Virus record (IMG/VR): IMGVR_UViG_3300007559_000007 | Coordinates: 1-46,392 of that record | Length of the DNA stretch: 46,392 nt | Source of the DNA: a virus | Direction: 5' to 3' (one strand) | Shown: positions 14,189-46,358 of the stretch, in pieces | Numbering within the stretch: position 1 is the first letter of the stretch | How the letters are laid out: the number at the start of each line of letters is the position of its first letter | Position numbers and translations under genes: made by a program | The notes under the pieces: generated by a model | Database searches by the model: none | What the model was told of the DNA's origin: nothing | The model's input: only the letters and a program-made list of their open reading frames with translations

Positions 14189-15115
14189 ATGACTACGACC
14201 GCTCTCACACAAGTACCCGCGCACATCGCGGCCCGTATCGCCGCTCGTCAGGCCGCTGGCAACGGCAAGTCCGATGCCATGAAAGCCATCCTCGGCGATG
14301 GCGTGCAGTTCCCCAAGATCAGCATTCGTGCTGGCCGCTATCGGTTGGTGGAAGATGGTGTTGAGACCCCCGTGGGTATCACACTGGATGCCATCATCGT
14401 CGGCGTCAACCCCCGCACCAGCAAGGTGTTCTATGCGAAGGCTTATGACCAGAGCGCTGACAATGCCCGCCCCGACTGCTTCTCCAATGATGGCATCAAG
14501 GCTGACGCCTCCGTGACAGCCCCAGTCGCAAACGGCTGCGCCAACTGCCCCAACAACGTGCTGGGCTCCAAGATTCTGCCGTCCGGCGCCAAGTCCAAGA
14601 TGTGCAACGACCAGCGCCACCTCGCGGTGATCCCTGCGTCTGACCCCAGCAAGGTCTATGGCATGACTGTTCCCGTGTCCGGCATGAAAGCGCTGCGGGA
14701 ATATTTCAAGGACTTAGACAATTTCGGCATGAACCCCGAGGAAACCATAACCGAATTGGGCTTTGACGACACCGCCAGCTACCCCAAAATCACGTTTACA
14801 CGCAAGGGTTTCGTGCCTGAGAAGCACATCACCAAAATTGATAGCATCGTGGGCAGTGATGACGTGAAGGTGGCAGTACGCCTCATGGCACCCACAGGCT
14901 CAACGCAGGCCGCAATTGCGGCTCCTGCAGGGAACGCAGCACTGGCTGCACCTACCCCAGCGGCTGCGCCCAAACCAGCGGTGGACGATGCGTACGAGGA
15001 TGATGCTGCTCCGGTTGCCGCAGCCCCGGCTCCAGCGCCTTCCAAACCAGTAGCGGCTCCTGTGAAGGCGTCGTCGGAATTAGAAGCTAAACTCGACAAC
15101 TTGTTCGGCGACTAA
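14189..15115 (+). CDS. Putative ssDNA-binding protein
   Basis: A 308-residue protein. Residues 95-145 hold four cysteines (PDC, CANC and MCND motifs), which could bind zinc as in gp32-type proteins. The C-terminal third is low complexity (Ala/Pro), ending in an acidic tip of ELEAKLDNLFGD type, as seen in ssDNA-binding proteins that recruit polymerase through an acidic tail. It lies between the methyltransferase and the primase-helicase. The assignment rests on this layout and on the acidic tip, not on a full family match. GGAA precedes the ATG. Confidence 0.75.
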   Translation: MTTTALTQVPAHIAARIAARQAAGNGKSDAMKAILGDGVQFPKISIRAGRYRLVEDGVETPVGITLDAIIVGVNPRTSKVFYAKAYDQSADNARPDCFSNDGIKADASVTAPVANGCANCPNNVLGSKILPSGAKSKMCNDQRHLAVIPASDPSKVYGMTVPVSGMKALREYFKDLDNFGMNPEETITELGFDDTASYPKITFTRKGFVPEKHITKIDSIVGSDDVKVAVRLMAPTGSTQAAIAAPAGNAALAAPTPAAAPKPAVDDAYEDDAAPVAAAPAPAPSKPVAAPVKASSELEAKLDNLFGD

Positions 15116-15138
15116 TATACTGGCCTTCCGATTTCTCA

Positions 15139-15160
15139 CCCCGGCAGCGCCGGGGTTTTT
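15139..15160 (+). terminator. Rho-independent terminator
   Basis: CCCCGGC and GCCGGGG form a perfect 7-bp stem around a three-base AGC loop, followed directly by TTTTT. It lies 23 bases after the ssDNA-binding gene and just before the primase-helicase gene, so it should end or reduce read-through into the latter. Confidence 0.9.
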
Positions 15161-18300: not shown

Positions 18301-18552
18301 TTACTTCATCCCGCCCGACTTGGTGCGGGCAAACGAGCGGTTCTGGGAAGCTGGAACCGCTCGGAGATTGGAGGCCCCGTTGCCCCCGCCCTTGACGATG
18401 GGATGCTTGTGGTCCACATCCTTGCCGTCCCCCTTCTTCACTACCCCCTTCTTCACCATCTCCGCACGGGCGGAGTTGCGTGCCGCGCGGTTCTTGATCT
18501 GCTCGGGTTTACCCTGATACGCCTCGTACTCTTTTTTGTAGTCCCTAGCCAT
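18301..18552 (-). CDS. Small HNH-type endonuclease
   Basis: An 83-residue basic protein. The HNH motif is visible as D-V-D-H-K-H-P, then G-N-G-A-S-N, then N-R. GGAGG precedes the ATG with good spacing. Because of its minimal size it may be a packaging-associated or free-standing nuclease. It overlaps the upstream HNH gene by eight bases. Confidence 0.75.
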   Translation of the reverse strand: MARDYKKEYEAYQGKPEQIKNRAARNSARAEMVKKGVVKKGDGKDVDHKHPIVKGGGNGASNLRAVPASQNRSFARTKSGGMK

Positions 18553-19051
18553 TTTTACCTCCGTCGAATTTAGCCACAACTGCGCGGCATACCTGCACAA
18601 AATCTTCAACCGGCATTGTGCTGCGCCAGCTATTAACGTGCCTGCACACAAGCTGTATATTATCCGGGGAATACGCTCCGCCGGGGATAATCCTATCTAT
18701 AGACGCGTTAGTAAAGCACACCGCCCCTTTAACTAGCTCGCAAGTTAGCGGGGCACCAGATAGGGCACACATACCCCCTTGCCGCTCGTGCAGGGCTAGG
18801 AGTACCTGCGTGGTAAGCCCGTCCTGCTTGCGCCCACTACCTTGCAGCAGACGTAAGTAGTATCTGTGCCAATTCCCGCTGATCCGCTCGTATTGACTTT
18901 CCGTCGTCAGCACCCCGGTGATATACGGCCACTTGCCCTTGCACTGCTCGGAACAGAACTTGTGCGCCCCAGACTTCGGGGTAAACCCCGTGCCGCAGAC
19001 CGCACACTGTTTCTCAGCCCACTTTGCATTCGCGTGATTCCACCCGGCCAT
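18545..19051 (-). CDS. HNH-like endonuclease with N-terminal zinc ribbon
   Basis: A 168-residue protein when started at the ATG at 19051, which has GGAGA 7 bases upstream. An ATG at 19063 would add four residues but has no Shine-Dalgarno. The N-terminus holds a CxxC...CxxxC zinc ribbon (AVCG through CSEQC). The C-terminal part has a CALSG knuckle, a D-R-I-I-P-G-G segment and an N-x-x-L-V-C-R-H-V-N end, as in HNH nucleases where Asp replaces the first His. It is likely a homing-type endonuclease. Its ribosome binding site lies in a long inverted repeat. Confidence 0.7.
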   Translation of the reverse strand: MAGWNHANAKWAEKQCAVCGTGFTPKSGAHKFCSEQCKGKWPYITGVLTTESQYERISGNWHRYYLRLLQGSGRKQDGLTTQVLLALHERQGGMCALSGAPLTCELVKGAVCFTNASIDRIIPGGAYSPDNIQLVCRHVNSWRSTMPVEDFVQVCRAVVAKFDGGKNG

Positions 19052-19087
19052 GGTATTCTCCATACTATAAAAATACAGAGAATACCA
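19051..19087 (-). promoter_or_regulatory. 10-bp inverted repeat covering HNH ribosome binding site
   Basis: Arms at 19051-19060 and 19078-19087 (TGGTATTCTC and its exact complement) enclose a 17-base AT-rich loop. Read as minus-strand RNA, the Shine-Dalgarno (GGAGA) and first base of the start codon lie in the second arm, so read-through transcripts from the 2064-residue gene would hide the start. The loop contains a TATAG-type run that could act as a promoter -10 or late-type element. Confidence 0.7.
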
Positions 19088-19093
19088 CAGCCG

Positions 19094-22000
19094 TCATTCT
19101 CCTCGTAGTTCCTTGATCCGCTCGTCCCTGCGCTGCAGCAGTTCGTCGATGCGTTTGTTGAATGCTTCCAAATCTGGTGTTTCGTACCTGTTCGTGGCGC
19201 GCTTGATTTTAGCAATTTCCTTGTCGAACTCCGCATTGATCCCACGCACGGCCATGGCCTGCACCGCGCCAGCCTCGATGGTGTTGAACGAGTGCACCTG
19301 CAACCCAAGGAACTTCTGAGCGGCCTCCAGATTGCCAACGGGATTGCCGGTGATGCCCAGTTCGGGTTTACCCTGCCCACCCACGGCCTTGGTAGCTACG
19401 TCCGCAGCGGTGGGCGCCCAGCTTGGTGTGAAGGTTTGCGCCATGAACTTGGCCCGGTCGCCCACTTCCTCCCATGTGCTGTCCGTGGGGGCAGAGAGTG
19501 GCTTGCCGGTGTACGGGTCCACGCCGCCCATGAGGCCGATGATGGCGTTGGTAAACGGGCCGCCCGGCGTGACGGGCTGTGGCCAGTTGTTGATGCCGAG
19601 AAAACCCTGTGGCTGCTTATCAAACCAGTTGCCTGTAGGGATGTAGGCGCCCAGCTTAAAGTACACAGGGTTCTGGTCGTCGCCTAGACCGGGTATGCGG
19701 ATGTACGCGTGCGGGCCAACGCCCCATAGGCGCGATTGGAATTTCTCAGGCCCGCCCTTGCGCACCTCGTCGTCCTCGTCACCGCCCATGGCCGCATCCA
19801 GCAGCGCGTAGGCCAGCATGACGTTGACCAGCTTCCACGGCTTGTGCAGGGCGATGTGGCCCAGCACCGGCATGATGGCGTAGGACCAAGACACGAAGGG
19901 CAGCACAGACTGGCGCATAACCTTGACGGCCTTGGAGTCGATGTCGTAGTCGAGGAAGGCGAAACGGGCGTAATCCCCGGCCTTCTTGAACTCGGCAGGG
20001 GTCAGGTAGGTCTTGTTCTTGGCGGTAGCGATCTCCCCCGCTTTGGACAGGAATGCAGCGAGGCGGAACGCATTGTCCTCGGCGGCGTACATGCCTGTGA
20101 CCGCCTCATCGAACTTGGTGGTCTTGGCCCCGAACTTCTTGGCCATGGCGGCGACGTATTCGGCTTTCTGTTTTTCAATGCCCGCCCAAGCCAGAGCACG
20201 AGAGTACATACCCGTGGGCTCATTGGTAGCGGCCGACGCCTTGTACGCCTCGTACAGAGACTTCTTGACCTCGATGCTGGAAAAGTCGCCCAGCATGGCC
20301 CCGGAGTTCATGAACGCGTGCACAATCCGACGCTCTTCGGCATTCATGGCGTCGGGGTTGGATTGGTAGCGATACAGCATGGCGGTGGCTTTGCCGACCG
20401 TCACGACGGGGATGTCGTGCATCGCGGCCAGCGTCAAGTTGCTGGCGATATTGGTGATGTGCGTGCCGGGGTTGTAGACCGTCTTGGCCTTCTTAAACAG
20501 TCGCATGGTGTCGTGCAGCGCACTGATATCGTGGATGGGGCGACGGTCCGTCATGTCCTGCACAGCAGCCCAGACATCGGCGCGGACCAGTTTACCGGCC
20601 AACGCACCGTATGTCCCAACATGCACCTGCTGCCCATCTATCTCCACGGTGCCCTTGGCGGGAATCTGCACCCACTGGTATTTGTTGCGGTACACACCCT
20701 GCAGCTTGGAGGATTTAGCCTCGCGGGATGACAGTTGTAGCACAGAGTCGGGGAGCACGGTGACCCCGATTGCCTTCTCTAGTTGCCCGAGATCGTCGAA
20801 TACCACGCTGTCCGCGTCGCCCGACTTGCTGGCAATGGCATCGGTCAGGTTGTTGGACGCGTAACTGGCGGCCAGAATGGCCATGGTGTTGCGCATAGCG
20901 TTGGCCACAGAGTCGGCCTTGCCTTCATCGACAGCGGCGGCAGCGTCGCGGTATGCAGTGAAGACGTAGGTGTCTGCATCGGCAGACTTGCCCTCGAACG
21001 TCCAGACGAGGCCATCGTTGGCGAGGAACGTACCAGCCGGAAAACTCTTCCACCGGGACTCGTGGGTATACCCAGCAGGGATAGGTTTCTTGGTCGTGTC
21101 GGTGGGGTCGGTCTCCATGAGTTGCTTGTACCGTCCACCGGGGGTTGGTTTGCCCATGCTGTCCAGCGGCCCATAGATGTTGTCGCTCATGGCTTTGAGC
21201 GTTTTCTGCGCGGCCAGTTCGTTCAGCTTGCGGGCACCCAGTGCATTGCTTGATACATCTTCGGCGCTCTTAGCAAACACCATAGACTCAGAGAATTTGA
21301 GGTCTCGGAAAAATGCTTTAGCCTTGGGAGTGCGCAAAGCGTCGATGTACCGAGCCCGGTGCTCCAGCAACATGTCGGCCAGTTCCTTGGCCTCGACGGA
21401 TACCTTCTCTCCGACACGGATTTCCTTCACATCGCCATCGAGGTACTTGATGATCTCCAGCACGGTAGGCGCGTCGTAGGAACTGATTTTGTTGGCCAAG
21501 GCGTCCGTCACGATGGCACTGGTGTGCTTGTCGGTCTTGAATGTCTGGAACCACTCCCGCATGGGCACCGGAACGCCGAACGTGGGGTTGACGTAGGAGA
21601 TGTATTTGGCCAAGCTGGGGGACTTTTCCTTGATGTAGTCGGCCACTTTGCCGGCGGCTTTTTGGAAGGAACCCTCGGTGCCTTCGGCGCCCGCCAGCTT
21701 GCTCCACCCCATCGCCTTGAACAGATGCTCGGTGATGATGTTGGGAATCAGCTTCTTTGTGAACTGGGTGAGGTCGAGCGACTCGGGCTGCCCCGGCTGC
21801 GTAGCGTTGGACGCGGGAGTGGAAGACTCCACGGCGGCGTTCAGCGTTTTCGCTCCCTTCACACCTTTCTCGCCGAACGCCTTGGCGCGGTCACCCTCGG
21901 TGCTGGCTTCGAGCAATCGGGCGGTGGCGTCCATGACATCGTTGGCCACGGTGTTCGACACACCAAGGAACCGCTGAAGCAGTTTGGCGAACATGTCGTA

Positions 22001-25000
22001 CAGCTTGTTGGCCAGTGAAGCGAACTTCTGGTCCTGCGTGCTGGGTATCTGGCGCAGCGCGGCGGCGAAGTCGGGCATGGTCATACCGTAGGACACCAGT
22101 TCCAGCAGCGCGGCATTGAGGTCACCCGGCTTGTCGGACTTGGCCAGCCCGGCGATGATGTCGTAGGCGGCCTTGGCATTCGGGCTTTTCAGCTTGGTGC
22201 GGTCATAGGCCACCACGTCCTTGACGGCTTGGCGCAGGCGCGCAACGCTGGGGTTGTTGGGCTGTGTGTACACAAGCCACTGCAGGGCAGCGTGAAGCGC
22301 CTCGTGCAGCGTTACCTCGGCAGATGCGGTTTTGGACAGGTGGATGGTGTCTGTTGCAGGGGTGTAGCTGGCGTGCTCGCCCTCTGCCACGTCGAAAACG
22401 ACCTTGGGTTTCTTGGTCTGTTTGCGCATGGCCCGCGACAGCGCCGATGCCAGCATACGCTCATATGGGGTATTGCCATGCGCCCACAGGTAGTTTAGTA
22501 CGCCTTGGAATCCCTTTTCTTTAGCGCCCCCCACGTGCCCTACGTAGCCGTTCTCAGCGGCCTTCACCAACGGCTCGGCCTCGGCGCCCTTCTTCTGGAC
22601 TTCCCACGCATTGCGCTTCTCCCCAGTCGAAAGATTGATAAGGTTCTCGGTGTCTTCCAACTGCCCATCGTTGAACATTTTCCACGCACGACTAAGGTTT
22701 GTGTCCATGGAGGTCCAGTACGCGCCCTTATCGGTGTCGGTGGTTTTCTTGGCCATCTCGTTCTGTACGCGGGTTTTGAAGGCCGCCACAAGGGCGTTGG
22801 CATTGGCCGCCGAGCCGGACGCGACAATTAGTTCCTCGATGGCGTTACGCAGTTGTTGCTGGGCTCGTTGCCGGGCTTTCGTGTATTGCGCGGACTGCAG
22901 TTTCCGGGTTCCCTCAGATTTAGATATAACCCCTTCTGAGCGCAACGTATTGCTCGACAGGTTTGACAACTCGTCGTATGCCTTGGCCACCTTCAGCGCG
23001 GCGTCGCGCATGCCGGTCATTTGTGTGGCGTACTTCTTGGTCAGGTCTTTGTCAGTCTTGGCTGTGCCCTCGACATAAATTAATGGGGTAGGGGGGCTGC
23101 CGGTCTCGGGGTTGAACGGCTTGCGCAGTGCGCGCACGATGCCCGCCATGATGTTGCGGCCGATGGTGATACGCCCCTTGGGTTTGCCGCCCGGCAGGGA
23201 TTTCACCGCAGACTCCAGCGCCTTGTTGGTCATGGCCATACCGGCACCCGAGGCCATAGCGTCCTCAACCGCCTGAGCCAGTTCGGACTCGGGGGTAGAC
23301 TCGTCGAAGGGTTCGGTAACCGCTGCCGCTGCTTTGGGCGCCTTCGGCCCCTTGGTAGGAGCGGGCTTGGCAGGTGCAACCGGGGCAACAGGTTCCTTGC
23401 CAGAGATTTTGGCGTCGATCATCTCCAGAATCTGCGCCTTGGTGGGCTTGCCAGTGATCTGGATGCCCATGTCCTGTGCGGTGCGCGCAATGTCACTGCG
23501 GGTCTGGCGGGCGAGCTTCTGGCGGTCAAAAGGCTCCGCAGGAGTTTGTGGCTCCTGCGGAGTAACTGAGGGGGCGACCGCAGAAGAAACTCCCTCAGAA
23601 GGAGACACGGGTGATTCTACAGCAGGAACACCGGCTTCGCCCACGGCTGCGATGCGTTGCTCGACAAGGGATTCTTTGCGGGCTTGTTCGGCTGCGATGC
23701 GTTCTTGCTCGGCCATGGCCGCCGCGCGCTGTTCCGCCACTGACCCATATCCGCCTTCGAGCGTAGGTTGCGACTGGGGCATACCCTGCCACTCGGCACC
23801 CGCCTGCCCAGCAGACACAGGAGCCACTTCCCCTTGGGGAGCGCCTTGGAGTCCCACCATGCTCAGTGGTCCCATGTCGGACGGGGTCATGCCCTGCCAC
23901 GTCTGTCCCGCAGTAGTAATTGGGGTGTTCTCTGGGCTGTATCCCATGGGGATAGCGGTGCCTGCGAAGATGTCTTCCTGCCGCATCGTGCGCGGGTCTT
24001 CCTGCTGTGTAGAAGGCACAGGCGGGTACATCGCAAACTCTCCACGACCCCCGAACATGTCTGGTGTTGGGCCTTCCGAAACAGGGGCGTATTCCCGCAC
24101 GGGTGCCGCAGGTTCTTGCTCTGGTGCTTGAGGCAGCGCGCCCCGGGGGCGGTTCGCATACCCGGCCGCTGCGCCGAACGGTGCCATGAGGGCCGCCATA
24201 CCAAGGCCAACCTTCGCACCCTCCACGCCCGCACCGAAGGGGTCTTCCGTTGTGATACCCGCTTGGCGCTCCACGGCCGTCTGGCCGTACGCTTGCCCGA
24301 ATTCTGTGCCAGCCTGCACACCGGCGTTGGCCAGCAAGTCAACAGCTACACGTTTACCCTGCCCCATCTGCACGCCTCTGGCCATGGCAGAGAGTCCTTT
24401 GCCCGCCCCGGTGATGAGGCCGAGGCCCAGCCGGTCGCCAATAAGTTCTCCACCCGCCTCGATAGCGCCGGTCTTCAGGGCCGCAGCCTTGGCATCCTCT
24501 TGGCTCAGGCCCGCTTTCAGCCCGCGCTCATATGTGTCGGACGCTGTGGAGCCGAAAAACAAACCACCGGCTACACCCGTGCCCACGATGGGGGCTGCCA
24601 TCATTGCTGCGCCCGCAGCCACAGAAGGGACGAGGGATCGGCCACCCTTGATGAGCGCGGAGGCAATTTCGCCCCGGCCGTACACGTCGGGGTTGTACTG
24701 GGCTTGGCCCATGTCGAACTCGTCGCCCGTTTGCTTCAGAAAACTTTCTGCTGCGGACCCTGCAGGGGCAGCAAACTGCGCGGCGCGCACACCCATCTGG
24801 GGGATGTCTTTCACACCCTGCCAGATTTGGCTTCCCACCTCGGACGCGGCGGACCCGAACCCCCGCTTGGCGCCCTCGGCCTGCAGGTAGTTTTTCACCT
24901 GTGAAGCGCGCACGCGCGCCACACCGGGCGGTAGTTTGTCGGAGTTGTCGATGTCGAGGTACCCAGCCTTCATGGCCGCGTCAATCTCGCTCAGGTTGGA

Positions 25001-25288
25001 GCCGCTAAACTTCTGGCCGCCCGACAGGTACATTCCGGATGCAGTGTCGTACCCGATGATTGGGTCCGCGCTCGGCGCGCTGGGAGTAGGGGCAGGTGTG
25101 CGGGGCGTGCGCAGCGCGTTAAGTTGCTGTGCATACGCCTCTGGGTTGCCCATGGGGTCTTGGGCCGCCACGCGAGACCGGGGCATGCTGAGTCCTGCCC
25201 GGGGGACAGTGCCCATGGCAGCCTCTGCTTTTGCGCCGCCCATGAGGGCTTCGTCAGAACGCGTGTTTGAATCGAACAAATTAGCCAT
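19094..25288 (-). CDS. Giant internal/ejection virion protein with metallopeptidase-like motif
   Basis: A 2064-residue protein. The N-terminus is Pro/Ala-rich with hydrophobic helices around residues 200-260. A long Pro/Gln/Glu-rich linker covers about 390-620. A zinc-peptidase HExxH motif (H995-E996-A-L-H999) sits in a VTLHEALHAA segment. The C-terminal half contains an LPD38-type region (VLPFVSWSYAIMP, then ALHKPWKLVN), familiar from ejected large polyvalent proteins. With the next three minus-strand genes it probably forms the ejectosome that opens the envelope for DNA entry. The ATG at 25288 was chosen over a TTG at 25294. Confidence 0.85.
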   Translation of the reverse strand: MANLFDSNTRSDEALMGGAKAEAAMGTVPRAGLSMPRSRVAAQDPMGNPEAYAQQLNALRTPRTPAPTPSAPSADPIIGYDTASGMYLSGGQKFSGSNLSEIDAAMKAGYLDIDNSDKLPPGVARVRASQVKNYLQAEGAKRGFGSAASEVGSQIWQGVKDIPQMGVRAAQFAAPAGSAAESFLKQTGDEFDMGQAQYNPDVYGRGEIASALIKGGRSLVPSVAAGAAMMAAPIVGTGVAGGLFFGSTASDTYERGLKAGLSQEDAKAAALKTGAIEAGGELIGDRLGLGLITGAGKGLSAMARGVQMGQGKRVAVDLLANAGVQAGTEFGQAYGQTAVERQAGITTEDPFGAGVEGAKVGLGMAALMAPFGAAAGYANRPRGALPQAPEQEPAAPVREYAPVSEGPTPDMFGGRGEFAMYPPVPSTQQEDPRTMRQEDIFAGTAIPMGYSPENTPITTAGQTWQGMTPSDMGPLSMVGLQGAPQGEVAPVSAGQAGAEWQGMPQSQPTLEGGYGSVAEQRAAAMAEQERIAAEQARKESLVEQRIAAVGEAGVPAVESPVSPSEGVSSAVAPSVTPQEPQTPAEPFDRQKLARQTRSDIARTAQDMGIQITGKPTKAQILEMIDAKISGKEPVAPVAPAKPAPTKGPKAPKAAAAVTEPFDESTPESELAQAVEDAMASGAGMAMTNKALESAVKSLPGGKPKGRITIGRNIMAGIVRALRKPFNPETGSPPTPLIYVEGTAKTDKDLTKKYATQMTGMRDAALKVAKAYDELSNLSSNTLRSEGVISKSEGTRKLQSAQYTKARQRAQQQLRNAIEELIVASGSAANANALVAAFKTRVQNEMAKKTTDTDKGAYWTSMDTNLSRAWKMFNDGQLEDTENLINLSTGEKRNAWEVQKKGAEAEPLVKAAENGYVGHVGGAKEKGFQGVLNYLWAHGNTPYERMLASALSRAMRKQTKKPKVVFDVAEGEHASYTPATDTIHLSKTASAEVTLHEALHAALQWLVYTQPNNPSVARLRQAVKDVVAYDRTKLKSPNAKAAYDIIAGLAKSDKPGDLNAALLELVSYGMTMPDFAAALRQIPSTQDQKFASLANKLYDMFAKLLQRFLGVSNTVANDVMDATARLLEASTEGDRAKAFGEKGVKGAKTLNAAVESSTPASNATQPGQPESLDLTQFTKKLIPNIITEHLFKAMGWSKLAGAEGTEGSFQKAAGKVADYIKEKSPSLAKYISYVNPTFGVPVPMREWFQTFKTDKHTSAIVTDALANKISSYDAPTVLEIIKYLDGDVKEIRVGEKVSVEAKELADMLLEHRARYIDALRTPKAKAFFRDLKFSESMVFAKSAEDVSSNALGARKLNELAAQKTLKAMSDNIYGPLDSMGKPTPGGRYKQLMETDPTDTTKKPIPAGYTHESRWKSFPAGTFLANDGLVWTFEGKSADADTYVFTAYRDAAAAVDEGKADSVANAMRNTMAILAASYASNNLTDAIASKSGDADSVVFDDLGQLEKAIGVTVLPDSVLQLSSREAKSSKLQGVYRNKYQWVQIPAKGTVEIDGQQVHVGTYGALAGKLVRADVWAAVQDMTDRRPIHDISALHDTMRLFKKAKTVYNPGTHITNIASNLTLAAMHDIPVVTVGKATAMLYRYQSNPDAMNAEERRIVHAFMNSGAMLGDFSSIEVKKSLYEAYKASAATNEPTGMYSRALAWAGIEKQKAEYVAAMAKKFGAKTTKFDEAVTGMYAAEDNAFRLAAFLSKAGEIATAKNKTYLTPAEFKKAGDYARFAFLDYDIDSKAVKVMRQSVLPFVSWSYAIMPVLGHIALHKPWKLVNVMLAYALLDAAMGGDEDDEVRKGGPEKFQSRLWGVGPHAYIRIPGLGDDQNPVYFKLGAYIPTGNWFDKQPQGFLGINNWPQPVTPGGPFTNAIIGLMGGVDPYTGKPLSAPTDSTWEEVGDRAKFMAQTFTPSWAPTAADVATKAVGGQGKPELGITGNPVGNLEAAQKFLGLQVHSFNTIEAGAVQAMAVRGINAEFDKEIAKIKRATNRYETPDLEAFNKRIDELLQRRDERIKELRGE

Positions 25289-25334
25289 ACGCAACCCCAG
25301 AGTTAACTGAGGGTATTGTATAGCGGCAGGGGAT

Positions 25335-37130: not shown

Positions 37131-38705
37131 TTAGACTGAGGTTACAGTTTCCCAAGCCGTTGCACCGCCAATGCGCAACTTGTTCAGCGTGGTGTCAAAG
37201 TACATAGCGCCTTTGACGTAAGCCGGGGCTGCGGCTGTAGTAGCAGAAAACAACTGCAATGAACCGCTTGCATTTATTGATAGGGTTTGCTTGAATGTGA
37301 TTGCATTTCCTGCTGTGCCACTTGGGGCCGTGTACCAATTGTGGCTTCCCGACCCCTGTAAATACAGAGTCGCAAATGTTGACGCCTTGTATAGAAAATT
37401 TGTATTGTCTGCATAGGCGTTTGAAGTGCTAAATAGCTGGTTCGAATAGGAAGCAATCCCCGAGTTGCCGCCGAAATCTATTGCTTTGTAGTTACTCCCC
37501 CAAGCACTAGGCACAGTACCAATGCCAAGATTGCCGGAGGTGTCTAGGGTTGCGGCTACCGTGCCGCCAATGTAAACATTCAGTGGAGCCGCCGCCCCGC
37601 CTGTTGTTGATGCTTGTATGTAAGGGGTTGTCCCACCAGCCACACCAGAAACAAGCTGAAAGCCTCCGGTTTGCGTTGCAATTGCGCCCGCAGAGGTGAT
37701 TGATGTGGACGCACTAAGCGCAGTAAACGCACCTGTGCTACTGTTTTTCCATAGCCCGGTAGCCGATTCGTACTGCAGATGCTGCTTATCCGCTGGCGCG
37801 GTTATCAGCACATCGTGTAGCTCGCCGATCTCGAATCCATTCTGGACGTGCACGAATATAGAGCCGTTGCTGTGGTTGCTGATCACGCACCAGCCCAGAA
37901 GCACCCCGTGGTTGGGCGCCGTAGGTCGTACGTTGGTAACCGCGCCTGCCGTCGATGCAGACAGCCACAGGGAATCACCCTCGCTAAACGCCGAGGTATT
38001 TACGTCGCGCACCAGCCCGGAGGTAGTGACGAACCCCTCCGCATTATTGGCGATAGGTTCCGTGACAATGGCGAAGGTGCGGCTCGATGTGGCATCCGTG
38101 GTAGCCAAAGCCAGCGCCGCGCTCAGGCGTTGTCCCTGCGCCCCGACGACGTAGACGGCCTGCATCTCGGTAAACGCCACTCCAGTCTTGTTTACAACTC
38201 GTGCGACGTTCTCCTGCCCCACCTGCAACGTGACATTGCCGCCCTTCAGGCGCAAATCCGCGGTACCGTCCGTGTCGTTCCATGTGAACCGCCCTACTGC
38301 GTTGGCCGCCGGGGCACCCGTGGAAAGCTGCACCCCAGTAAACCCGCCCAAGGCCGGAGTCGTGCCCCCGATGGGAGTGCTATCCAGGGTACATAGGGTA
38401 ATCCCTACCCCGGTGATGCCGTCGTCCACCAAATCCGTGGGGTCTTCAAAAAGGACATCGGAAATTACCACGGTGGTATACCCAGCCTTGGACACAGTGA
38501 TGTCGTACCGACCGTCCGCCGCGTAAAACTCAATCAGGCCAGTGGTAGTGCTCTGGAAGGGGTTTGCCTTGGCTGCGCCAGCGTTGGTGCTGTATAGCGT
38601 TGCTACCGTGGCTGTGCCAGCGAGCGTGACGGTGACGGTGGCGGTGGACAATACCTCCAGCGCACTGCCATTGGTCGTGGCTATGGAGGCAGAATATTTT
38701 TTCAT
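37131..38705 (-). CDS. Tail fibre-like protein 2
   Basis: A 524-residue protein. The N-terminus is Thr/Ala/Val-rich with an Ig-like or carboxypeptidase-regulatory-like strand pattern (D-G-R-Y-D-I-T-V-S-K-A-G-Y near residues 65-77). The middle has Gly/Asn-rich repeats, and the end has a Y-V-K-G-A-M-Y-F-D-T-T-L-N-K-L-R-I-G-G-type segment common at fibre C-termini. The ATG is preceded by AAGAGGTAATTCA, shared with the capsid gene. Confidence 0.82.
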   Translation of the reverse strand: MKKYSASIATTNGSALEVLSTATVTVTLAGTATVATLYSTNAGAAKANPFQSTTTGLIEFYAADGRYDITVSKAGYTTVVISDVLFEDPTDLVDDGITGVGITLCTLDSTPIGGTTPALGGFTGVQLSTGAPAANAVGRFTWNDTDGTADLRLKGGNVTLQVGQENVARVVNKTGVAFTEMQAVYVVGAQGQRLSAALALATTDATSSRTFAIVTEPIANNAEGFVTTSGLVRDVNTSAFSEGDSLWLSASTAGAVTNVRPTAPNHGVLLGWCVISNHSNGSIFVHVQNGFEIGELHDVLITAPADKQHLQYESATGLWKNSSTGAFTALSASTSITSAGAIATQTGGFQLVSGVAGGTTPYIQASTTGGAAAPLNVYIGGTVAATLDTSGNLGIGTVPSAWGSNYKAIDFGGNSGIASYSNQLFSTSNAYADNTNFLYKASTFATLYLQGSGSHNWYTAPSGTAGNAITFKQTLSINASGSLQLFSATTAAAPAYVKGAMYFDTTLNKLRIGGATAWETVTSV

Positions 38706-43889: not shown

Positions 43890-46358
43890 TTACTTCAGCG
43901 CTAGAAATTTAGAAGCCGTGAGCGCAGTGTCAAGTTTAGCGGCCCGTGCGCTGGTGTAGCCTTGTGCGGTCATGCCAGACTGCACGGCAGCAGGGATGTC
44001 TGTGATGTCTCCCGTAATCACCGGCGATGCTGTGCTAACGACGCTGGTGTAGACCTTGCCCGCAAATAGCGTAATCGACCCGCCGCCCGAGGTGCTAGAT
44101 ACCAGTGGTGTAGCGTTGTCATCACGGTAAAGCCTGTGCCCGCCCGTGAACTCGACGCCCGTTGCCGATATATTGTCGAGCTTGAGATTGAGGATGGCCG
44201 TTATCACGCGGAAGTTGGCCGCATCCTCGGCCACGATGCCTCCGAACCAGTTGCGGATGCCGCTCTCTGTCGTTGTCGTGTAGACAAACCATGAGTACAG
44301 CCGATCTGCGGAAGTCTGCCCATTGGGGTCGCTAATGTCCACCTGCACATTGGGGTAGTCAGGAACAAACTCGGTCACCGTAGAGCCGTCCACGCCGATG
44401 CCTGCGTACACCGTGTCGTCCTGCTGCGTGACCAGAGCCGACCAGCCAGTGGAACCAACGATGACCTGTGTGGAAAATGGTAGCTTTGCACTTGTGCCGC
44501 TTTGCCATGTGACGGTGATCGTCAGCGTGTTGCCTGTGGTGTAGCCAGTGCCGTCGTTGTAGGTGGCGCTGTAGCTGGTGCCAGCGACGATCTGGTTGAC
44601 CACTTCGGTAGCCGTGGTGTTGTTGTAGACCCGCAGGCGCGAGCCAGCCGTAATGCCGGTGATGCTGACGGTCTTAGGCGGGACAATCGTACCGTTAGCG
44701 TCAGTGCGCGTGCCCACGAACTGCGCGCCGTTGGCGAGCGTAATCAGCCCGGTGGTCGTCATGTCCCCGGTGTAGGTGCTGGCCTTGATGGTGACGGTGT
44801 TGCCTGCCAGCGAGAACACGCTTGCAGCCGTAGCGTCGATGGTGATGTTGTAGCTGCCAGCGTTTATCAGGGTGCCGGCGCGGGTGAGCGAATTGTCGGT
44901 TTTGATGTTCGCTGCTAGGCTCAGGAAATACTGATAGTAATCGTACAACTTCGCGCTGGTTTCGAGCGTGGTGTATCCGGAAACCGTTGCGGCGTTTGTT
45001 TGCGTAATGGCGGTGTCCGCCAGCATGAACATCGTCTCGGTTGAGTTGTTCGTGTAGTTGCGCGCGCCGCCAGCCTCCATAAACCCATAAAGCCGCGCAC
45101 GAACTGTCCATGGTCCGTATTGCGTGGCTCCTGCTTGCTTGACCCTCTCCGCGACCACTAGGCCGGACTGCCCTGCAACCGCAGGGTGCGGGTTCACGTA
45201 GTTGCCACTCGCGTTTGTTGTGACCGTGAGACTATTTGTGGGCGTGCCGTCTGTTGCACTGACTCCTACAAACCACGCAGCGTTGCCTGCGGCGTTCCAT
45301 AAGCCAACCACCGTCGATGCTGCTGCGCTGTTATCTGCGCGGCGAGTCTGCACATTAACAGTGCGCCCAGTGTAAAAGCCTGCTCCGGCTGGCGTTCCGG
45401 GATACCAATACGACGCTGCATATGTCGATGCAAATGCCGGTGCAGCGGTATTCCAAAAATACGCCCCCTCTTTTGTGGTGGAGGTCCAGACCCAGTAGGG
45501 TCGGCTAAATGTAGCGTCTTGCGGAATACCCTGAAATTCCAGCCCGAAATAATGCGAGTCGGCACCAGCCCCGTTGTCGCCAGAGATAATGAAAGAGTTT
45601 TCAATAAATGACAGGTTTGCAAGCGTGGGCGAGGCGGCGCTCTTTACCCAAAACGGTTTCGTGTTGAACGCGCAACGCTCAATTCGATCAGCCCCTCGTG
45701 CCACAACATAGACGTTGTTAAAGTAGCTGTCTCGTAAATCGAGCCCTTCAGATGTCACCAAGTCGTTGAAGCGGTAGTTACCATTGCCCGGAAGTGCCGC
45801 AACGTTAACGCGATACCATCGAACACGGCCAGCCAACCCCATGTCGTTGAATGTTCCGCTGGATAGTGCATAGGCAATTTCCACCGAACCACCCTGCGCC
45901 CCAATACCACTGGCAAACAGGCGGCCCTGCTGCCACAATGAACCAGCAGCAGTGGTCAGAATAAATAAGCTGACAGTGAATCGAACGTGTTCGTTTATAG
46001 ACCCTATAAATCCTGCCGCAGATAGTGTTAGGTTGTATGGCACTAAATAAAAATTCGCGCTTGAAACTGTGACTCCGGCCAGAGCTGCATCCACATCGGC
46101 CCATGTGTACCCAATCGAAAACACGCTAGTGGCGTTTGGGGTGATGTCCCAGTTTGGTTCGACGGTCAGTGTCGTAGACGTAGCGGTACGAATGAAGCGC
46201 GACTGCCCTGCCCCGGTGCCGCCGGTAATCCAGACGATGCGGCCAGCCCACGCGCCAAAACCAGAACCAGTCAGCGTGTTCGCAGAACCGCCTGTGGCCG
46301 TGCCAGAGGCAACGCCGCTGTCAATAGTGATGGTTGAGCCGCTTAGAGTGATTGCCAT
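43890..46358 (-). CDS. Large fibre-like structural protein 3
   Basis: An 822-residue protein. The N-terminus (residues 1-85) is a Thr/Ser/Gly-rich attachment-like domain (I-T-I-D-S-G-V-A-S-G-T-A, then a V-E-P-N-W-D segment). The middle (about 140-300) has aromatic and Asn-rich repeats that could form a beta-helix, and the C-terminal part has Gly/Thr-rich strands, ending in a helical K-L-D-T-A-L-T-A-S-K-F-L segment. It lies upstream of the head genes rather than with the tail genes, so it may be a head fibre. GGGGGG precedes the ATG. Confidence 0.75.
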   Translation of the reverse strand: MAITLSGSTITIDSGVASGTATGGSANTLTGSGFGAWAGRIVWITGGTGAGQSRFIRTATSTTLTVEPNWDITPNATSVFSIGYTWADVDAALAGVTVSSANFYLVPYNLTLSAAGFIGSINEHVRFTVSLFILTTAAGSLWQQGRLFASGIGAQGGSVEIAYALSSGTFNDMGLAGRVRWYRVNVAALPGNGNYRFNDLVTSEGLDLRDSYFNNVYVVARGADRIERCAFNTKPFWVKSAASPTLANLSFIENSFIISGDNGAGADSHYFGLEFQGIPQDATFSRPYWVWTSTTKEGAYFWNTAAPAFASTYAASYWYPGTPAGAGFYTGRTVNVQTRRADNSAAASTVVGLWNAAGNAAWFVGVSATDGTPTNSLTVTTNASGNYVNPHPAVAGQSGLVVAERVKQAGATQYGPWTVRARLYGFMEAGGARNYTNNSTETMFMLADTAITQTNAATVSGYTTLETSAKLYDYYQYFLSLAANIKTDNSLTRAGTLINAGSYNITIDATAASVFSLAGNTVTIKASTYTGDMTTTGLITLANGAQFVGTRTDANGTIVPPKTVSITGITAGSRLRVYNNTTATEVVNQIVAGTSYSATYNDGTGYTTGNTLTITVTWQSGTSAKLPFSTQVIVGSTGWSALVTQQDDTVYAGIGVDGSTVTEFVPDYPNVQVDISDPNGQTSADRLYSWFVYTTTTESGIRNWFGGIVAEDAANFRVITAILNLKLDNISATGVEFTGGHRLYRDDNATPLVSSTSGGGSITLFAGKVYTSVVSTASPVITGDITDIPAAVQSGMTAQGYTSARAAKLDTALTASKFLALK

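Follow-up and report, generated by a model that had tools for sequence, protein, structure and literature searches.

A start-codon hairpin at the front of an inserted HNH endonuclease gene in a phage genome, and its possible control by a short local transcript

The DNA analysed here, referred to as the window, is the whole 46,392-nucleotide stretch of the viral record IMGVR_UViG_3300007559_000007. The name podovirus, given to it by the first-pass annotation, is based solely on the genes present, namely those for internal virion proteins, one of which carries an SLT domain; the nearest matches of the capsid protein are in Rhizobium phages. Two proteins of the structural block, of 822 aa (43890-46358) and 524 aa (37131-38705), had no Pfam or PHROG match. 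On the minus strand, a gene for a predicted HNH endonuclease lies between a very large gene and a small HNH-like gene, with a long hairpin over its start. The features of the locus are as follows:

19094-25294, minus strand: upstream gene, 2066 aa, the last of the minus-strand structural block; stop codon TGA at 19096-19094
18553-19093, minus strand: inserted cassette of ~541 bp, comprising the hairpin, the HNH gene and the Shine-Dalgarno (SD) sequence of the next gene; absent from four relatives
19072-19093, minus strand: 5' arm of the hairpin, 22 nt, CGGCTGTGGTATTCTCTGTATT; first base immediately 3' of the upstream stop codon
19070-19090, minus strand: promoter-like block CTGTGGTATTCTCTGTATTTT, with homology to the sequence that precedes the HNH genes in loci L133 and L126; sigma70 score not significant
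19067-19071, minus strand: hairpin loop TTTAT, 5 nt
19045-19066, minus strand: 3' arm of the hairpin, AGTATGGAGAATACCATGGCCG, holding the SD and the start codon
19061-19063, minus strand: alternative in-frame ATG (MENTMAGW...), aligning with the ATG of L133 and L126; no SD of its own
19058-19061, minus strand: SD sequence GGAG, 6 nt from ATG 19051 (start codon 19051-19049)
19051-19060, minus strand: 3' half of a perfect 10-bp inverted repeat, GAGAATACCA; partner TGGTATTCTC at 19078-19087
18545-19051, minus strand: HNH endonuclease gene, 168 aa, starting at ATG 19051; assigned from PHROG HNH / endonuclease VII matches, family alignment and predicted fold
18301-18552, minus strand: small HNH-like gene, 83 aa, phrog_4590; in most loci, members of the HNH family are followed by a relative of this gene

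ATG 19051 appears to be a better start for the HNH gene than ATG 19063, which was chosen by the ORF caller, because it has an SD and the family homology (MAGW.H..A.W) begins there; the SD is of consensus type and normally spaced. The protein matched the PHROG families of HNH endonuclease and endonuclease VII (E ~1e-13), and the family alignment revealed invariant cysteines of the type found in zinc-binding sites. The best PDB matches of its structure model (pLDDT 84.9) were the Gme HNH nicking endonuclease and PacI, with Foldseek probabilities of 0.99 and 0.96 and a weak E value of 0.03. When the protein was compared with Pfam, no family passed its own cut-off. By profile and predicted fold, the 168-aa protein is an HNH (beta-beta-alpha-metal) nuclease. 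In the 2066-aa protein encoded upstream, residues 513-628 gave a weak match to an endonuclease VII-like PHROG (E 4e-4).

A perfect 10-bp inverted repeat with 17 nt between its arms had been noticed at this start, and we found it exactly as claimed at 19087-19078 and 19060-19051 of the minus strand. The repeat is the core of a stem of 22 contiguous pairs (17 Watson-Crick and 5 G-U) with a loop of 5 nt. It had been described as covering the SD and the first base of the start codon; the SD is indeed covered, but in the extended stem the entire start codon is paired. We thus confirm the observation as real and stronger than it was stated. The 81-nt hairpin stretch has a minimum free energy of -36.0 kcal/mol, as compared with a shuffle mean of -17.4 kcal/mol (z -7.45; 0 of 200 shuffles as good), and none of 1000 shuffles equalled the length of the stem over the HNH start codon, with or without G-U pairs. 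In a scan of all 60-nt segments the hairpin ranked third on its own strand, and further strong hairpins lie elsewhere in the window. When 31 start sites of the window were compared, the HNH start proved the least accessible, at 20.3 kcal/mol as against a typical value of ~5.5. Opening of the SD and AUG was computed to cost ~21.7-21.8 kcal/mol with both arms present and 2.6-3.9 kcal/mol with the 5' arm missing, so that a large gap in accessibility is predicted between long and short transcripts. The claim that transcripts from upstream would fold and block the HNH start is therefore upheld in silico, at an opening cost of 21.7 kcal/mol. Rfam gave no match in the window. An intrinsic terminator was considered and rejected, since a U-tract is absent 3' of the stem and the hairpin is not in the list produced by the terminator scan.

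Four relatives (L010, L011, L197 and L198) carry an empty site, in which the end of the large gene and the start of the small gene lie within a few bases of each other; in the compared part of the large protein, L010 is 85% and L011 71% identical. Since these four relatives join the flanking genes directly, we count the ~541-bp unit as an insert, and its first base is the first base of the hairpin. Relatives of the HNH family were found in ~100 loci, and neighbours were counted over 95 of them. The pairing of a large HNH gene with a phrog_4590 relative directly downstream was noticed across a set comprising the window, L002, L004, L016, L104-L183 and L188-L194. The next gene was such a small HNH-like relative in 80 of the 95 loci, in phages that otherwise differ, and the upstream neighbours vary (a DNA polymerase-like gene plus one more in L106 and L107, another gene set in L104). 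The pattern of presence and absence is that of a free-standing homing endonuclease gene, with cutting of the empty site being putative. The small HNH-like gene is a possible homing target of the family; one nuclease gene may thus parasitise another. Over its first ~48 nt the small gene shares only 48-60% identity with L010, as against 80-100% in the remainder, which would fit co-conversion of a tract beside the cut together with the insertion, but a similar dip upstream, at 19199-19177, makes this suggestive only.

At the junctions of L105, L106, L107, L188-L191 and L194, the conserved first codons of the small gene (R-D-Y-K) are kept, but a TAG and one extra base come next, so that they are no longer in frame with the remainder. 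This out-of-frame remnant looks like a trace of insertion near the first codons of the small gene. In L106, the small gene is listed from a GTG that overlaps the stop codon of the large HNH gene (GTGA). Inside the small HNH gene of the window, 18334-18363 form another perfect 10-bp inverted repeat (CGAGCGGTTC / GAACCGCTCG, 10-nt spacer), the counterpart of which in L010 is CGAGCGGTCCCGGCATCCCAGAACCGCTCG.

To assess how often such hairpins recur, we took 1747 distinct contexts (candidate ATGs of ORFs of 110 aa or more, from the window and all fetched loci) and determined for each the longest perfect inverted repeat overlapping the ATG by one base or more, with a loop of up to ~27 nt. Only three contexts had at least 9 perfect pairs, namely the window (10), L104 (9) and L188 (9), each of them the start of a gene of this HNH family; the loci had been fetched for these genes or their neighbours and are a non-random sample, the comparison genes coming from the same genomes. 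With a stricter gene caller that requires an SD, 2 of 398 starts reached 9 pairs, both again in this family. The arms of the window, L104 and L188 are unrelated in sequence (TGGTATTCTC, ATAACTAGT and ATAGCTATC), and the 3' arm ends at position 0, +1 and +1 relative to the ATG in the three lineages. L107 also carries a hairpin, in which three paired positions are changed in comparison with L188 and all three are still paired through G-U; the stems of L104, L188 and L107 have 9-11 pairs. A start-codon hairpin was absent in five of nine close relatives (L105, L106, L126, L133 and L194), and the more distant homologs L004-L009 and L108-L122 were mostly without one. On the family tree, most forks of which are unresolved, the hairpin label requires three changes (bootstrap range 2-4). 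These data suggest independent origins of the family hairpins, a common origin being neither shown nor excluded by so poorly resolved a tree.

Clear promoters were found at the hairpins of some of these relatives. L104 has a sigma70-type promoter, TTGACA-17-TATAAC (5 of 1000 shuffles as good), with a -10 box that overlaps the 5' arm and an expected start point in the loop. Its -10 box being within the 5' arm, the L104 transcript would lack that arm, as does that of T4 I-TevI. The extended -10 element of L107, TGATATACT (6 of 1000), predicts a start near the end of the arm, and L188 shares the TATACT box of L107 with a poor -35 (601 of 1000). L194, without a start-codon hairpin, also has a good promoter (2 of 1000). 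For RNA starting in or after the 5' arm, the computed cost of opening the SD and AUG falls from 12.4 to 5-6 kcal/mol in L104, from 8.7 to 1.0 kcal/mol in L188 and from 11.0 to 2.3 kcal/mol in L107.

The best sigma70-like score in the window is unremarkable, 551 of 1000 shuffles being as good. The 45 nt preceding ATG 19063 can, however, be aligned with the leaders of the HNH genes of L133 and L126, an alignment equalled by 0 of 2000 shuffles for L133 and 24 of 2000 for L126; these leaders contain TTGACC/TTGACA-17-TACTTT, ending 6 nt before the ATG. The TATTTT at 19075-19070 aligns with this TACTTT box, and the TGA of the upstream gene forms part of a -35-like hexamer in the window, as do the upstream TGAs in L133 and L126. 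The first-pass annotation had pointed instead to a TATAG-type run in the loop. A TATAGT does occur at 19069-19064, but it has no -35 partner and is less likely to be a promoter because RNA starting 7 nt on would begin within the SD; by alignment, TATTTT is the better -10 candidate of a promoter that is itself putative. A T4 late promoter, as found in the hairpins of the T4 genes cited as precedent, is not present here, TATAAATA being absent from 19045-19110. The proposal of a short transcript that lacks the first arm gains from the clear promoter so placed in the relative L104, but the window promoter scores no better than shuffles. Taking homology with L133 and L126 together with analogy to L104 and L107, we infer that a local promoter may work in this phage. 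A repeated promoter motif was considered and rejected, CTGTGGTANNNNNNGTAYTTT occurring only at this site of the genome, and a longer pattern, itself written from the window, L126 and L133, matched only L126 and L133 in IMG/VR. No match to a T7-like RNA polymerase was found in the window or eight relatives by a search whose positive control also gave none, nor was one found among the ORFs scanned with Pfam and PHROGs. In L126 and L133, no SD follows the promoter-like element, which suggests that their HNH mRNAs may be leaderless.

Comparison with the same two relatives offers a possible origin of the hairpin. In L133 and L126, ATGG is directly followed by the conserved codons, whereas the window carries 12 more nucleotides, AGAATACCATGG. 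Part of this segment, AGAATACCA, is identical to TGGTATTCT of the 5' arm when the latter is read as its reverse complement. A template switch that copied the promoter region would at once create the perfect repeat and supply a new SD, and the three sequences compared make it conceivable that the hairpin arose in this way. RNA hairpins have been proposed to originate by template switching, which can create and maintain them (PMC8794818).

The hairpin, its position, the insertion and the family recurrence of start-codon hairpins can be read directly from the DNA, and they lead us to the following proposal. A free-standing, homing-type HNH gene would have invaded the junction of the 2066-aa gene with the small HNH gene, bringing the hairpin at its front end. 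On long read-through RNA the 22-bp stem would form, the SD and AUG would be hidden and the nuclease would not be made. RNA from a local start, in the 5' arm or shortly past it, could form no such stem, and the nuclease would be translated from it. We consider it somewhat better than an even bet (roughly 55%) that the hairpin silences read-through mRNA and that the HNH protein is translated only from a short local transcript. The purpose may be to keep nuclease output low and independent of the neighbouring operons. As the upstream gene closes a structural (late-type) block, the timing logic may be the reverse of that in T4: if host RNA polymerase reads the local promoter, late read-through RNA would be silenced and the local transcript would be active. 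The interpretation of the first-pass annotation is in this sense plausible, being strengthened for the family, and partly supported though unproven for this phage.

The main rival, a serious one in the window, is translational coupling, in which the hairpin would prevent independent initiation, a ribosome terminating at the abutting TGA (19096-19094) would open the stem, and nuclease synthesis would scale with that of the 2066-aa protein. A hairpin following the upstream stop codon is a feature of termination-coupled start sites, and the stem in the window does start at the base directly 3' of that codon. A ribosome covering 12 nt past the TGA would cut the cost of opening the SD and AUG from 21.7 to 8.2 kcal/mol, and one covering 15 nt to 4.6 kcal/mol; the terminating ribosome would leave the AUG almost fully free, but with 12 nt covered the SD would still be paired in the inner stem (6.6 kcal/mol). 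The relatives L104, L107 and L188 lack the abutment. Because their stems lie 25-35 nt past the putative upstream stop, a distance too great for a terminating ribosome to open them, coupling fails to explain the shared feature, and it leaves the promoters of L104, L107 and L194 unexplained. We regard it as rather unlikely. It seems to us improbable that the hairpin represses and is relieved either through cleavage of the long RNA, for example by RNase III or RNase E in or near the stem, or through some factor of the phage or host. A 22-bp duplex is of sufficient length for RNase III and the stem in the window would suit this enzyme, but the stems of 9-11 pairs in L104, L188 and L107 are short for it, and a cut on the 3' side would damage the start as well. 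RNase E processing has been described for the segB, segG and mobE transcripts (PMC2988022).

Slightly less probable again is a palindrome that acts at the DNA level, either as an operator for autorepression of the nuclease or as a scar of recombination or insertion, with no translational role. T4 I-TevI does repress its own late promoter through an operator upstream of the gene (PMC2988022), the hairpin lies at the 5' edge of the inserted cassette, and the 12-nt segment with its inverted copy of the 5' arm resembles a template-switch product (mechanism in PMC8794818). Against this, the 3' arm stops at the ATG in all three lineages, as one would expect if the hairpin serves translation and not protein binding to DNA, and the arm sequences differ between members, unlike the operator of one protein family. 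The least probable explanation, to which we give very little weight, is chance or a neutral by-product of template-switch mutation. Template switching can create and maintain RNA hairpins (PMC8794818), but this would have to account for a hairpin that recurs with three unrelated sequences among the 1747 contexts, each time over a start codon of the same gene family.

The preferred reading, that of a hairpin-gated start served by a short transcript, follows a principle already known from T4-like phages. On RNA that arrives from upstream, the ribosome binding sites (RBSs) of I-TevI, I-TevII, I-TevIII, segB and Aeh1 mobE are hidden in a stem, whereas a promoter inside this stem or next to it gives transcripts on which they are free (PMC2988022, PMC3014915); the first-pass annotation was correct on the T4 precedent (PMC2988022). 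As in these genes, a consensus SD lies in a stable stem on read-through RNA within a co-directional operon, a promoter beside or inside the stem would give RNA without the 5' arm (putative in the window), and mobE is likewise a free-standing HNH gene. The window differs in phage group and HNH family, in the absence of a T4 late promoter, in promoter elements that, where recognisable in the family, are of sigma70 type, and in an upstream gene of late structural type. On paper the locus resembles the T4-type hairpin-gated genes; it is not a strict member, because it has no T4 late promoter, the family and the phage group differ and the short transcript is putative.

Other comparisons are more distant. 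T4 genes e, soc and 49 have RBS hairpins, that of gene e with late promoters inside (PMC3014915). Gene e is alike in that the long transcript is blocked and the short one translated; all three, unlike the HNH gene, are resident phage genes rather than mobile endonucleases and use T4 late promoters. In seg43(25) of Aeromonas phage 25, a stable hairpin also lies just upstream of a homing endonuclease gene, but there the RBS is outside the stem (PMC2988022), whereas here both SD and AUG are inside. The hairpin-gated cases that we found in the open-access literature were of T4 type only, an RBS-hiding hairpin with an internal promoter having so far been the signature control of T4-like homing endonucleases. 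We tentatively suggest, as somewhat less likely than the reading for this locus, that in a widespread HNH homing family outside the T4-like phages, start-codon hairpins with a host-type promoter beside or in the stem have arisen independently several times, forming a self-insulating cassette that is indifferent to the operon into which it is inserted, with a polarity here opposite to that of T4. If this is true, such control would be widespread among mobile nuclease genes, which would have invented it more than once, rather than a peculiarity of T4, and one could ask why they are silenced on read-through mRNA (toxicity, or protection of neighbouring gene expression). It would also provide a simple sequence rule with which to find more cases.

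Elsewhere in the window, at 15093-15156, a sigma70-like promoter (TCGACA-17-TATACT) is followed by a strong terminator-like hairpin, and the two lie just before a gene for a 986-aa primase/helicase-like protein.
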